A stretch of 64,000 nt of DNA from Rhabditophanes sp. KR3021 (taxonomy: Eukaryota; Nematoda; Chromadorea; Rhabditida; Alloionematidae). Under the pieces are notes generated by a model. It did no database searches, was not told where the DNA came from, and saw only the letters and a program-made list of their open reading frames with translations. Position 1 is the first letter of the stretch, and every line of letters starts with the position of its first letter. Position numbers and translations under genes: made by a program. Positions 57,001 through 64,000 of the stretch are shown piece by piece. The stretch spans positions 7,006,001 to 7,070,000 of the forward strand of contig CAUJLY010000002.1 of assembly GCA_963281155.1 (NCBI GenBank), read 5' to 3'.

Positions 57001-57204
57001 AAGATAGAAGACAGTCTTGTTGTTTGTTTTGGAATCAATTGTGAGGTTTATTTTCCTTTATTTTGTATATATCTACATAATTTAATATTCATTTGTTGAA
57101 TAAATTTTTATTATCGCTTCGTGCTTGCAGCTAAATGTATGCTAAATTTATTTAATTCCAGATATTCATTTACATGTCAGTAAAAGTAACCAAAAGACAT
57201 TAAT
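54012..57204. other. Gene-poor intergenic region
   Basis: About 3.2 kb between the divergent RBM12-like and ERO1 genes. It is AT-rich with no supportable gene. Near 56895-57040 a + strand frame reads RDYYIGSDDVSFIARSPV.. and looks coding-like, but has no start or continuation. Frames at 54080-54388 and 56241-56486 appear to be noise. Confidence 0.4.
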
Positions 57205-58677
57205 ATGCTTGTCAATTCTAAAAGCTCCCGAAAGTTATTGTTAATCATCGCTTTACATACCATATTATTCACATCTATAAAAACACAGTTCACACCTTCG
57301 CAGCAATGCTTTTGTTCAGGCAAGGGGGATTTAGTCAACACGTGTCAATGTAACGAAGCTTCGATAGATGACTATAGTAATAGGAATATTTACCCATTGC
57401 TTCAGAATATATTGCAGAGAGATTTTTTTAAATTCTATAAAGTTAACATGGAAAAGGAATGTCCTTTTTGGGCGGATGAGAGAAGTTGTGGGAGCAAGGA
57501 GTGTGGAATTGAGAATTGTGACGATGAGGTTCCAGAGCAGTTGAAGAAACCCATGACTGTCCATATTCCTAGTTCGCAGGAAAATAGTTTGGAGGATGAT
57601 AAGGTGGAGGAAAGTGAGAAATGCGAAGAGAAGAGTAATAGTTTTGATCCTCTTGACAGGAGTTTGTCTGAAGTTGACAAAGCTCAGATCGCTGAAATTG
57701 AAACCTTTGATGAGACCAAATTGACGTTTTGTGACATGCACGACGAGGAAGGCGAAGATCTCCATTATGTAAATCTTTTCAAAAATCCCGAACGTTACAC
57801 TGGCTACAGCGGAAATTCTGCCCAAAAGGTATGGATGACAATTTATCAGGAAAATTGCTTCAAACCAGATCCCAAAATCGACCCCAATTATTTATTAAAT
57901 CCATCTAATGTAGGAATGTGTCTAGAAAAACGGGTATTCTACAGACTAATTAGTGGCTTGCATTCTGCTATCACAATCTCCATAGCTTCTCACAATTTCA
58001 AACCTGCTCCCATGGGTTTCGGGCAAGGAACATGGTTCAGGAATGTAGAAATGTTCAAGGGTCGTTTCGGAACAAAATGGAGTTGGGAAGGGCCCGAAAG
58101 GATGAAAAACATTTATTTTGTCTATTTATTAGAAATGAAGGCTTTGCTGAAGATAGCACCTTATTTGAATGACGATCTGTTTTATACGGGAAATGAAGTT
58201 GATGATAAGGCGATGAAGGATATGCTAGGAGAGTTGGTGGGAGCCATTGAGGGTTCGCCTAATTCATTTGACGAGAAAGATATGTTCAATGGACCTTTTG
58301 CACCTTCATTAAGAGAGGAATTTCGTATGCATTTTCATAATATTTCAAGGATCATGGATTGTGTGGCTTGTGATAAATGTAGATTGTGGGGCAAATTACA
58401 GACTCATGGAATGGGGACGGCCTTGAAGATTTTGTTTAGTGAGATGCCCGTTAAGAATGAAAATGCATTAGATAATGGTACTATCAAAGACCCTTCCATC
58501 TTACTTGACGACCCACATGCATCCAAAGTCAAAGCATTGCCTAAATATAGAATGCCCTACTGGTTAACAAGAAACGACATCGTTGCTCTATTCCAATCTT
58601 TTGGACGTTATGCTTCTAGCATACGAGAAATAGAAGAATTTAGGAAAGAATTGGCGGTCAAGAAAACAGAATTGTGA
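57205..58677 (+). CDS. ERO1: ERO1 endoplasmic reticulum oxidoreductin
   Basis: A single exon of 490 codons. ERO1 is the FAD-dependent oxidase that reoxidises PDI, making H2O2, and so drives disulfide formation in the ER. Residues about 1-27 are a signal sequence. The shuttle pair is in RSCGSKECGIENC (about 93-106), the regulatory Cys cluster at the N-terminus in CFCSGKGDLVNTCQC, the FAD-binding segment in GYSGNSAQKVWMTIYQENC and LHSAITISIASHN, and the active-site CVACDKCRLWGKLQTHGMG at about 385-404. All catalytic cysteines are present. An acidic insert (about 115-165, DDKVEESEKCEEKS) is longer than in vertebrates. The lack of introns contrasts with most genes nearby. Confidence 0.96.
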   Translation: MLVNSKSSRKLLLIIALHTILFTSIKTQFTPSQQCFCSGKGDLVNTCQCNEASIDDYSNRNIYPLLQNILQRDFFKFYKVNMEKECPFWADERSCGSKECGIENCDDEVPEQLKKPMTVHIPSSQENSLEDDKVEESEKCEEKSNSFDPLDRSLSEVDKAQIAEIETFDETKLTFCDMHDEEGEDLHYVNLFKNPERYTGYSGNSAQKVWMTIYQENCFKPDPKIDPNYLLNPSNVGMCLEKRVFYRLISGLHSAITISIASHNFKPAPMGFGQGTWFRNVEMFKGRFGTKWSWEGPERMKNIYFVYLLEMKALLKIAPYLNDDLFYTGNEVDDKAMKDMLGELVGAIEGSPNSFDEKDMFNGPFAPSLREEFRMHFHNISRIMDCVACDKCRLWGKLQTHGMGTALKILFSEMPVKNENALDNGTIKDPSILLDDPHASKVKALPKYRMPYWLTRNDIVALFQSFGRYASSIREIEEFRKELAVKKTEL

Positions 58678-59755: not shown

Positions 59756-62700
59756 CTAGGCGCTGAAGGTAAGGACGCTTGTTTGGTTTCCTCTTATAAG
59801 GAGAGTTGTAGGCAAGTCCCGTGTCATCATATCTAACCAACTGAGGTATAAGGCTGATGACACCATGTTTTTGCGAGGGACTGGTAAGGTTATGCAGATC
59901 AGGTCTGCTTCTTTTGAGAGTTCTCTTAGTAATTCGGCAGTCCTTAGTTGGCGGTTTGTTTTATCTTTTTGGGAATGCAATTCGGCATCTGAAATCATGC
60001 CTTCGGCTGAATTGTCTGACAAGACACATCTGAAAGGTTCGATCAATTTGTTGAATTGATCCATCGTGGAGTCTCTTGGTTTTCTGGTGATATCACTGAT
60101 GACATGCACATCACCAACCTTGATTCTAAATTTATTCAACAACCCAGCCATTCCTCTTTGCATTTGCTCGATTCCTCCTGAGGAAGCAGACACAGTAAAG
60201 ACACGCAATTGGGCGTTTTCGAGGTACGACTTAGGAATGGACAAAAGATAAGGAATCAACAAAGTCAAACCACCATCATCAAACAACCACCAAACATCAA
60301 CCCTCGGCTGTTTGACTTTATTCTTAAATCTATTGATCGACACCAGCAACTCCTTCTGAGCGGCAGTTGGTCTTCTTGTGCTATAAAACAAACAATCGTT
60401 AATAAACAAATGACGCAATCATAAATTGTGAAATAACACTTGACAACACATGTTTAGCGAAACAAAAAGAAATGAGTATATACTAAAGTGACACAAAAAG
60501 AAGTATAAAAAAGAAAGTATACTAATAGGTAAAGGACAAACCTTGATGTTGTGTTGTTTTGTATGGTATCGCTTAAATTTGTGTTTTCATTAAAGGATTT
60601 TGGTAGAAAAGCAGAAACTAACCTTCGACGCATAAATGAATTGATCTTTGAGTTGATGCCGCAGTTGATGACGGTGTTTTGGCCGGATGGGAGGTGGATG
60701 GAGCCGTTTCCTTTTCTCGATTTCGTTTGCAGTTGGGGAGGGGTTGTTGAGGTTGGAGTTACTGGACGCTACCGATGCTTCTAAGTTGGATATTTCCTCT
60801 TCGTCGTTTTGGTAAGCATTGATGTCTAAGTATGAATTGTCCTTGTCGCCGCTTTCCTCTTCTTTGACTGTTTCTTCATTTTCAATCAACCGTGTTTCTT
60901 CTTCTTTTTGTTCATTCTTGACGATGGCAGCAATTTCTTCGTGCTCTCCAATTTTCAACTGCTTCATCATCTCTGAAAAGTCTAATCCGTTCCCTGAGTT
61001 ACGCAATATCAAAACGCCCACTATAAATAAATACAATCAAAAGATGTCACATGTTGATGTTATCGCTTTGGATAAAACAATTAGAAGATGTGAGGATATT
61101 ATCCTTTTGAATAAAACAAACAAAATTAAAAAGCTATTTTTGTTTTCATTCAAAGGTATTATTGTTTTCATCAAAAGCTATTATTCTTGTCATTAAAAAC
61201 ACATCTGCACTTTTCTTCAACTTACTGTTACTCTCAAAGAAATCCTGAATCATCCCAAAATACTCATTCACCTCTCTCATATCCCTCTGCCCAACCTCCG
61301 CCCAATTACACTTGAACCCAAACAAAGCGACATCCGTTTTTAATCGCCCCAATCCCGTCGTTTCCGTCAAATGCGAAGCTCCTTCTCTGATACTTTTTCT
61401 GGCAATCGAAGAAACAAAACATTTGACATCTCTTTGACTCAACCAATCCGTCAACTTAATATTCAACATATTAAGGTCAGCCAAGTTTTGAATTTTATTC
61501 TTGGAGGTTCTTATGATGTTGCCGCAAATCATCAGGTTATTGCCCTTGCAAATACTATTGGCAAAATCAACCAAAGAAGGCCTTGCTTGCGGATGGCCGG
61601 TAAGTACCAAAATTTGGGGGCGATAGTTTTTGATGTGATCTTCTGTCTCATTTAACTTAATCATTCCCTTCAAGGCAGTTTTGTATGAATGAGCTTGGAG
61701 GGAACTTCCCCAATTGACGTCCGGTTTACGGTAAAGTAAATACAAGTAGAGAGCTCCGAAACAGATGAATGTCAATAAAGCAGTTACCCACGATATTATG
61801 AACATTACGACGATGCATAATAAGGCCCCCATCAAACTTATCCACATGTTGTAATATTTGAAGGATGGGCGGAAGCCAGGAGAATCGGCAATTGAGTTGT
61901 CGAAGCAAGCGTAGTTGATTAAAGCATACGAGGCCAGGAAGAAGTTGGAGATGATTGGGGCGATTGCATTAAGTTCACCTATAAGAATCATCAACATTGC
62001 AATCAGGAAACCGAGGAAGTATGCGATCCTGGGTTCTTCGTTCTTGCCGAAACCACGAGCAAATTGATTTATGTACGGAAAGAGTCTATCTTTGGACACG
62101 GCTTGGAATATCTTGGGTGCTCCGACAAGGGAGGCTAATGCACTTGATAATGTCGCTGCAAAGATACCTAAAATAAATAACTACACATTTAGTCACATCT
62201 ATTTGCACTTACCTGCCGTGACAAGTACTCCAATCGCTGAGCTCATTTCCATGATGTTGAAATTATTCAATAAGCCATAAGGACATGTGTTGTTTAAGGC
62301 ACAAGGGGGCTCGATGTAACCATACACTCCACTGGTATCATTATTCACATAAACAGGTACATTGACTCCGTCAGCATGTCTTACGCAAACGGCCCCAGTT
62401 GTCCATACCGTTAACAAGTACACTAGTGAGGAGGTGAAGATGGCTGCTAAGGTGCCGATCGGAATTGCTTTTTGGGGGTCTGCTAAGTCTCCGGAAATGT
62501 TTGCTCCGGCCATGATTCCTAAAATAGTAATTAAACAAAAGAAAAGGTAGGTTTTAAAAGAGAGTTTTAGCAAGTTCAATACAGCTAGGATTGTCAACAA
62601 ATGAGTAAACTGCTTCAAAACAACTTTTTGGCAAAATATCCTCTAAAGTCGTTTCTTTTCCTGTATGTTCAATAAACTTTTCCAATTTAGCTTGGCTTAC

Positions 62701-64000
62701 CCTGAAAATAAACGACATTAAATATAATTAGGCTCGATTGATGGTACCGTTGAAGCTGGAAAGTAGATGGCAAAGACGGAAAAAAATCCTTGATCTATAT
62801 AGGAGGGGAACAAATTGGAAGTTAATGTGTCTATACTCAAGCCAGTGATTCCTTTGACTTGTTGTTCATTTGACATAGGTAAGAATATTCCTACGAAATA
62901 GTTTACAATTGATAGAGTCAAGATTCCTAATAATCCCATTTGCATCTTGGATTCGAAACCAGTTCCGATGAAGACGATCGACATCAAAATTGAGCACGTA
63001 ATCAGGCCAATTATTCGAACATCATTCATTCCACCGTCGATTAACATAAAATCATACTTGAGGAAGATGTCACGTACGGTTTCAGAAAAACCGATCACAC
63101 ACATAGCTAGAAAGTATTAAATGAATGAATAGCCGAGTAACAAAAAGACTTACCCGCCGACACAGCATTAGCAAACGAAAAAATGATGCCAATAGATCCT
63201 CCAAAAGCCGGTCCCAATGATCTCGAGATCAAAAAATAAGCACCACCACCCTTAACATCTCCATTCGTGCAAATAGCACAGGTAGAAAGTGCCGTGATAG
63301 TAGTAACTAGTGTAGAAAGCAACACGACCACTGAACCCATCAAAACACCTGCTTGCCCAGAAACAAAACTGATTCTTAAATAAAGCATCACTCCGAAGAT
63401 TGACAGAAGACACCTGAAAAAGACTCCTTCAATCCACCCAAATTTGTTTCTGGCCGTGACTTGCGACAACGATTCATTGGACTTGGCGTATTTGGCATCA
63501 CTTAAAAGAGGGTCTGTGACGGTGTCATACTTATCCAAAGATCTCCCATTAAGCAATTGAGCCATGGAGGGCCTTGCGGTCAGGGGCTTGTTGGGATCAA
63601 TTGTATTCTTGTAAAAGTCAATAATGGGTGGCCGTTCCAAGGTCTTGTAATTTCTCAAACTTTTCAGATTAGCATTGTTGATGGAATTCTCATTCGAACC
63701 ATCGCCAACCGCATCTGATACCTTGAATTTGACGGTCCTTTGGTTGTCGTGCAAAGTTAATTGGGCTTCGTTGTGGTCGTCTGTTGCGTTGAGGTCATTC
63801 ATGGAGGATGGTGTTGAGTTGGTTCCGGCCACGACCTGAAAAGATTAGTAATTGAATTAGAAATGACACTTGCCGTAAATCTGCCGGCCAGGGATGCCTT
63901 CCTAGACAAGACGGAACTTTCTCCACTTTTCAAAGTATTAGTGGATGCGTACTGATTCAATTGGGACTGACTGCCACTTCTACTATTAAGGCCATACTCA
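59756..64000 (-). CDS. SLC12A2: Na-K-Cl cotransporter (SLC12A1/2/3 group), 5' end beyond window
   Basis: Exons on -: >64000-63874, 63154-63835, 62748-63106, 62701 (one base), 62213-62518, 61226-62167, 60623-61020, <60381-59756. The protein imports Na, K and Cl together and sets cell chloride and volume. Cation-chloride cotransporter signatures: [24 protein letters not shown] in pieces (..[11 protein letters not shown].., ..[11 protein letters not shown]..), [59 protein letters not shown]. The C-terminal domain has [20 protein letters not shown] and ends QTSVLTFSA as in NKCC/NCC. An acidic insert (about 60640-60980) lies in the cytosolic part. The GC-AG intron at 63836-63873 and the one-base exon are described separately. 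The last junction (60623 to 60380) does not keep phase with the strong donor; a weak donor GC|GTCGAAG would. Confidence 0.9.
62701..62701 (-). other. Putative single-nucleotide exon of the cotransporter
   Basis: On the - strand, TTTTCAG is followed by a single G and then GTAAGC. Joining exon 62748-63106 (ending ..TCA ACG) with G and exon 62213-62518 (starting GA ATC ATG) restores S-T-G-I-M-A-G, conserved in this family. Skipping it breaks frame in the core transport domain. Inference from sequence alone. Confidence 0.6.
63836..63873 (-). other. GC-AG intron in the cotransporter
   Basis: On the - strand the donor is ACG|GCAAGT, otherwise perfect consensus with GC in place of GT, and the acceptor is TTTTCAG. 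The intron is 38 bases. Reading through it shifts out of frame and stops; removing it links GRFT to VVAGTNS. Confidence 0.7.

Follow-up and report, generated by a model that had tools for sequence, protein, structure and literature searches.

The window, a 64,000-nt stretch of a contig of Rhabditophanes sp. KR3021, carries on its minus strand a gene of the Na-K-Cl cotransporter (NKCC) family, here called C2. The features around the junction studied are listed below (slashes in sequences mark splice junctions).

62748..63106, minus strand: NKCC exon upstream of the junction (359 nt), with its phase-0 end at TCA ACG (TTCAACG at 62748)
62702..62747, minus strand: first intron, 46 nt, GTACCA..TTTTCAG, mostly the end of a dispersed element
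62701..62701, minus strand: putative one-nucleotide exon, G, base 1 of the Gly codon in S-T-G-I-M
62519..62700, minus strand: second intron, 182 nt, GTAAGC..ATTTTAG
62213..62518, minus strand: downstream NKCC exon, 306 nt, starting GAATCATGGCC
62590..62732, minus strand: match to the end of a dispersed introner-like element (E 7.8e-14 with a profile built without this copy)

The 46-nt intron begins with GTACCATC and ends with TTTATTTTCAG, also written ATTTTCAG (62747-62702); the 182-nt intron begins with GTAAGCCAAG (GTAAGCC) and ends with TACTATTTTAG, also written CTATTTTAG (62700-62519). The G at 62701 stands alone between an acceptor and a donor that are both canonical (TTTTCAG/G/GTAAGC). 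The genome (44.8 Mb) contains the 14-mer TTTTCAGGGTAAGC a single time. The phase-0 exon end at 62748, the introns of 46 and 182 nt and the lone G at 62701, all described in a first-pass annotation of the region, were found exactly as described in the minus-strand sequence. Elsewhere in the window, on the plus strand, positions 57190-58677 hold a 495-aa ORF without introns, which we take to resemble an ERO1 oxidoreductase.

Translated with the G, the protein aligned across the junction without a gap to human NKCC1 (SLC12A2), and the motif TG[I/M/V/F][M/L]AG, read by eye, had no indel in any of the 15 homologues that cover the site, of 23 listed. This bears out the earlier view that the segment S-T-G-I-M-A-G is conserved and that the frame must hold. 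The best protein match of the gene was from Panagrolaimus superbus (69%). A spliced aligner written for this analysis, which allows only canonical GT-AG introns and was given the Panagrolaimus homologue as query, returned the arrangement unprompted (exon of 359 nt, intron of 46, exon of 1, intron of 182). Single introns of the type GT/GC..AG were then enumerated with the donor between -30 and +120 and the acceptor between -120 and +90 of chosen anchors. Eight were in frame in C2; all eight inserted 30-31 residues into the conserved segment and six of them also deleted residues. No single canonical intron in the searched range thus keeps the protein of the window gene, and homology, enumeration and spliced alignment all require the G at 62701 for the conserved reading frame. 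Two consecutively removed introns around one base were the only canonical reading found that keeps the NKCC protein, which supports, at the level of sequence, the annotation's proposal of a real one-nucleotide exon or two-step splicing. The 229-nt stretch contains one AG/G/GT candidate, and none of 2000 dinucleotide shuffles reached its score, the scoring matrix being built from 12 introns only. A 57-aa ORF within the introns (62554-62727) was considered as coding sequence and dropped: its PF00777 match was weak (E 0.0034, below the cut-off), it matched nowhere else in this genome, and its copy in the paralog C3 is shifted by indels. Rfam gave no matches up to E 1 for the loci L003 and L004.

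Searching the same genome revealed further NKCC-type genes. C4, with 74% amino-acid identity to C2, has an exon ending GCAAC/GTAAGT and resumes at AG/GAATTATGG, two bases short at the same codon as C2. Its gap contains TTTTAG/AG/GTAATA, a two-base spacer matching the two-base need, and spliced alignment gave introns of 713 and 38 nt around AG without a frameshift. There was one candidate pair in the gap, equalled in score by 20 of 2000 shuffles, and no single intron in the searched range was in frame. An interpretation of the C4 gap as two one-base exons was rejected, as none of its four AG/N/GT sites has N = G. C3 (41% identity to C2) has an exon ending TTTACC/GTAGGC and resumes at AG/GACTTTTGG, one base short at this same codon. 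CAG/G/GTAAAA sits 45 nt into the gap, and spliced alignment gave introns of 45 and 2120 nt around G without a frameshift, the next exon lying about 2.1 kb downstream. Again there was one candidate pair (33 of 2000 shuffles scored as well). Four single introns in the searched range were in frame in C3, all with a GC donor, one of which adds just one Val. In C1 there is no gap; an intron of 46 nt lies three codons upstream. Four-fold degenerate sites of C2 and C3 are near saturation (0.33 vs 0.25 expected).

BLAST aligned the block 62731-62611 with the C3 intron at 72% identity. A genome search with the C3 block returned 30 rows, counting itself, the C2 intron and some double pieces. The repeat, detected by DNA similarity without use of the reading frame, occupies introns of unrelated genes, among them hosts of filamin, SLC22 and selenoprotein T type, and the interior AG(G)GT is part of it; in host sense the repeat ends TTTATTTCAG/G/GTAAATTTAAA or TTTTAG/GTAAATTAAA. 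The end patterns were found at 6, 10 and 12 places in the genome, and reversed controls at none. A profile built leaving out C2 and C3 recovered the C3 copy at E 1e-63 as well as the C2 copy. The C2 match spans the interior acceptor, the G at 62701 and the interior donor, and is confined to 62590-62732 of the two introns; this copy deviates by 33% from the majority element sequence. Against C4 the profile scored E 0.0015 at a location away from the microexon, which is not clearly part of the element. In a tree of the copies C2 and C3 were not paired (137 columns, weak support). The C3 intron preceding the twin intron (L005:1969-3849, plus strand) holds another copy (profile E 1.1e-33), and a 242-aa ORF on the opposite strand there had no homologue at E 0.001.

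In the pair L051/L052 the element is about 1 kb long. It spans practically the whole intron, from donor to acceptor, in L051, L052, L053, L054, L056, L058 and L065; among these hosts are a GDSL-type gene (L054), a sirtuin gene (L053) and genes that on our own reading we take to be of DHHC type (L051) and P5-ATPase type (L052). Possible target-site duplications were seen by eye in L044 (ATTGCTCCAG), L065 (TACCAG) and L052 (ACCAGG), and inspection by eye showed none in the window NKCC gene. Opposite-strand ORFs of L052 and L054 resembled GIY-YIG domains weakly, in two ORF pieces (E 1.4e-4 to 7.5e-3; best scores PF22945, E 1.4e-4, and PF01541, E 1.9e-4), all below the cut-offs.

Element copies directly adjoin the 3' side of coding exons. 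From the host donor to the interior AG/GT or AG/G/GT downstream of it, the distance was 43-49 nt in each of the 20 copies measured, which is the size of ordinary short introns of this genome (45, 46, 47, 52 nt). At L035 (C3:4599194-4599415), CAG/A/GTAAGC occurs inside an intron with the pair far from the donor, and the junction seems to need one base modulo three; its host is presumably nicotinic-receptor-like and would lack one residue relative to that family.

The relation between spacer length and host frame was tested at 21 junctions by fixing donor and acceptor and computing the number of bases needed for an open frame on both sides. Donors and acceptors for this test and for the spacing count were picked by eye, after some frames had been read. 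L042, L049, L067, L069, L071 and L072, whose right end was not found in the DNA examined, were left out. Copies with AG/GT needed no base in eight of nine cases (L051, L052, L053, L057, L058, L045, L040, L033). The ninth, L047, needs one base by the ORF rule, but its frame-0 host ORF stops 12 residues past the junction, and it was counted as unclear, as was L035. The two copies lacking an AG..GT pair (L044, L032) also needed none. Single AG/G/GT copies needed one base in six of seven cases (C2, C3, L056, L065, L068, L055), C3 being a tie between 1 and 2 by the ORF rule that homology settles as 1; the exception, L054, needs 0. L066 (C4:2891501-2896200), an SLC22-type gene with two AG/G/GT elements in tandem, needs two. 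With unclear rows excluded, a base was needed in 7/8 junctions with a spacer vs 0/8 junctions with none (Fisher p 0.0014; p 0.0004 if L047 is counted as 0). Spacer length thus tracks the frame need of the host in the junctions tested.

Homology of the host proteins pointed the same way. With two additional bases L066 aligned without a gap to OCT2 across the junction, and the Pfam MFS_1 score was 68.5 bits vs 54.0 for one base, the latter match stopping at the junction. L056 with one base was gapless to filamins across the junction and scored 35.0 bits with the Pfam filamin model, whereas no match was obtained without the G; its left end may carry extra host or element bases. For L068 the Rdx score was 52.8 bits with the G vs 14.5 without it (cut-off 22.6). 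L065 had no Pfam match. L054 (C3:7490001-7500000) and L055 (C2:6824501-6834000) are duplicated lipase-type loci, 99.0% identical over 8.2 kb. L055 is in frame with the G and L054 without it, owing to a one-base difference behind the junction; the donor is GC in L055 and GT in L054. Pfam scores of the pair (38.0 and 36.2 bits) do not settle the ancestral state.

Could the frame gap in the window gene be a sequencing or assembly error, a G missing at the first donor of one ordinary phase-1 intron? One-base slips in GG or GGG are a frequent type of error. However, one base is missing from the paralog C3 and two from the paralog C4 at this very codon, and interior bases are also needed at five host junctions that are unrelated or duplicates (L056, L065, L066, L068, L055). 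Since the gap recurs in two NKCC paralogs and in unrelated repeat hosts, an error of this kind is very unlikely. A single intron with a non-canonical 3' cut, which keeps the last base of the acceptor AG (two bases in L066 and C4), also has little probability. Since the acceptor ends in AG and a G is what is missing, such a cut would leave the protein at the gapped junctions unchanged or at least acceptable. It leaves unexplained, though, that AG/GT copies need 0, AG/G/GT copies 1 and the tandem pair 2 bases, and that one fitting AG..GT pair is present in every NKCC gap; we know of no general splicing rule by which bases of the acceptor AG are retained.

A different history, with a real one-base exon, is possible and in our judgement rather doubtful: an older twin intron would have been present in the NKCC genes first, and elements would have taken over its role in C2 and C3 later. 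The position of the gap at one codon in C2, C3 and C4, together with the lack of a clear element in C4, speaks for such a sequence of events. So do two further findings: the copies in C2 and in C3 remain recognisable members of the family although four-fold sites are near saturation, and they do not group together in the copy tree. The elements may thus have arrived after the NKCC gene duplications. On the other hand, elsewhere the element brings its AG..GT pair along, the tree is based on 137 columns with weak support, and C4 is possibly an independent event. At the codon shared by C2 and C3 there may have been two insertions or a replacement of an older twin intron.

Taken together, these data make it highly probable that position 62701 is a genuine one-nucleotide exon belonging to an introner-like, presumably mobile, element. 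In host sense the end of the element would consist of a minimal intron of about 46 nt, the acceptor TTTTCAG, a spacer of no or one base and a second donor (GTAAA or GTAAGC), the donor of the minimal intron being created at the insertion point. The two introns are probably removed one after the other, because two spliceosomes are unlikely to bind a single base as an exon at the same time. Removal of the short intron first would give ACG-G/GTAAGC, and the regenerated donor would then be joined to the distal acceptor; the reverse order is also possible. The potential for recursive splicing can be read in the sequence, as ACGG/GTAAGC in the window gene and as exon/GTAAA in the AG/GT copies.

The presence of the base itself could be accounted for by the way the element inserts. 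We infer that on insertion the donor GT takes its G from the host, and that the AG of the acceptor comes from the second target copy. In AG/G/GT copies the interior G would then refill the coding position, and an mRNA lacking it would be short by one base. In L065 TACCAG flanks the element on both sides (upstream CCA/GTAAGT, downstream ACCAG/GAGAC): the upstream copy would cede its last G to the donor, the coding G would be lost, and the interior G would restore CCA GGA GAC. In AG/GT copies such as L052, L053 and L058, insertion would have occurred behind GG, with no base lost and a spacer of zero. This model of base compensation is inferred from few junctions. Against the explanation as a whole count L054, which is in frame without the G despite carrying AG/G/GT, and the GC-donor single intron of C3, which at the cost of one extra residue would keep the frame too. 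On balance we lean slightly towards a transposon end with a built-in minimal intron and a recursive exon of zero or one base, the one-base form repaying the base lost at insertion. If so, the element can enter exons without breaking the frame, and one-base exons are a recurrent product of an intron-making transposon.

The first-pass annotation knew of no established one-base exon in an animal. For nuclear genes this held, as we found none in the literature searched, which left most subscription journals out of scope; it did not hold for mitochondria, where placozoan cox1 has one (PMC5436844). That exon too is ascribed to intron insertion, but the introns are of group I and are not removed by the spliceosome. 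In Arabidopsis, the nuclear gene APC11 contains a constitutive one-base exon with experimental support, for which intron definition and recursive splicing were proposed (PMC4674806). The NKCC case is similar in the one-base exon and the stepwise removal argued for it; it differs in that several genes of an animal, known from their sequence, are concerned here, as opposed to one plant gene for which the accessible part of that paper describes no mobile element. Fusarium CYP621A shares the AG/G/GT arrangement, which was likewise deduced from a gap in the reading frame of a conserved motif; it concerns one orthologous set of fungal genes, comes with RNA reads, and no dispersed element is described in the portion available (PMC12940212).

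Introners were reported in 175 of 3325 genomes, with only two groups of animals among them (PMC9860276). The repeat described here resembles them in filling introns of unrelated genes and in that a duplicated target appears to provide one of its splice sites, and is unlike them, as far as that text goes, in its interior second splice pair and one-base spacer. The words 'nematod' and 'recursive' are absent from the accessible text of PMC9860276, and a study of 104 nematodes mentions introners with no nematode case in the part available (PMC9169325). A one-base exon tied to an introner or other mobile element was not found in the literature searched, including the available part of PMC10228655. 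If RNA confirms the splicing proposed here, animal nuclear genes, for which our literature search found no earlier case, would have one-base exons, and several genes at once; spread by a repeated element would be a route by which such exons originate. Gene finders would then misread these genes, and the natural copies with 0 or 1 base make it possible to test how the spliceosome handles an exon of almost no length.

Removal in consecutive steps is also known from recursive splicing with zero-nucleotide exons and from stwintrons, and the AG/GT copies resemble ratchet points. In the sources as available, ratchet points are described for long introns, and in stwintrons a splice signal is split. 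In the window gene both donors and both acceptors are whole and no splice signal is interrupted. Here, the second donor is complete and follows an equally complete short intron, in some copies separated from it by one coding base, and the case joins introners, recursive splicing and ultra-short exons.
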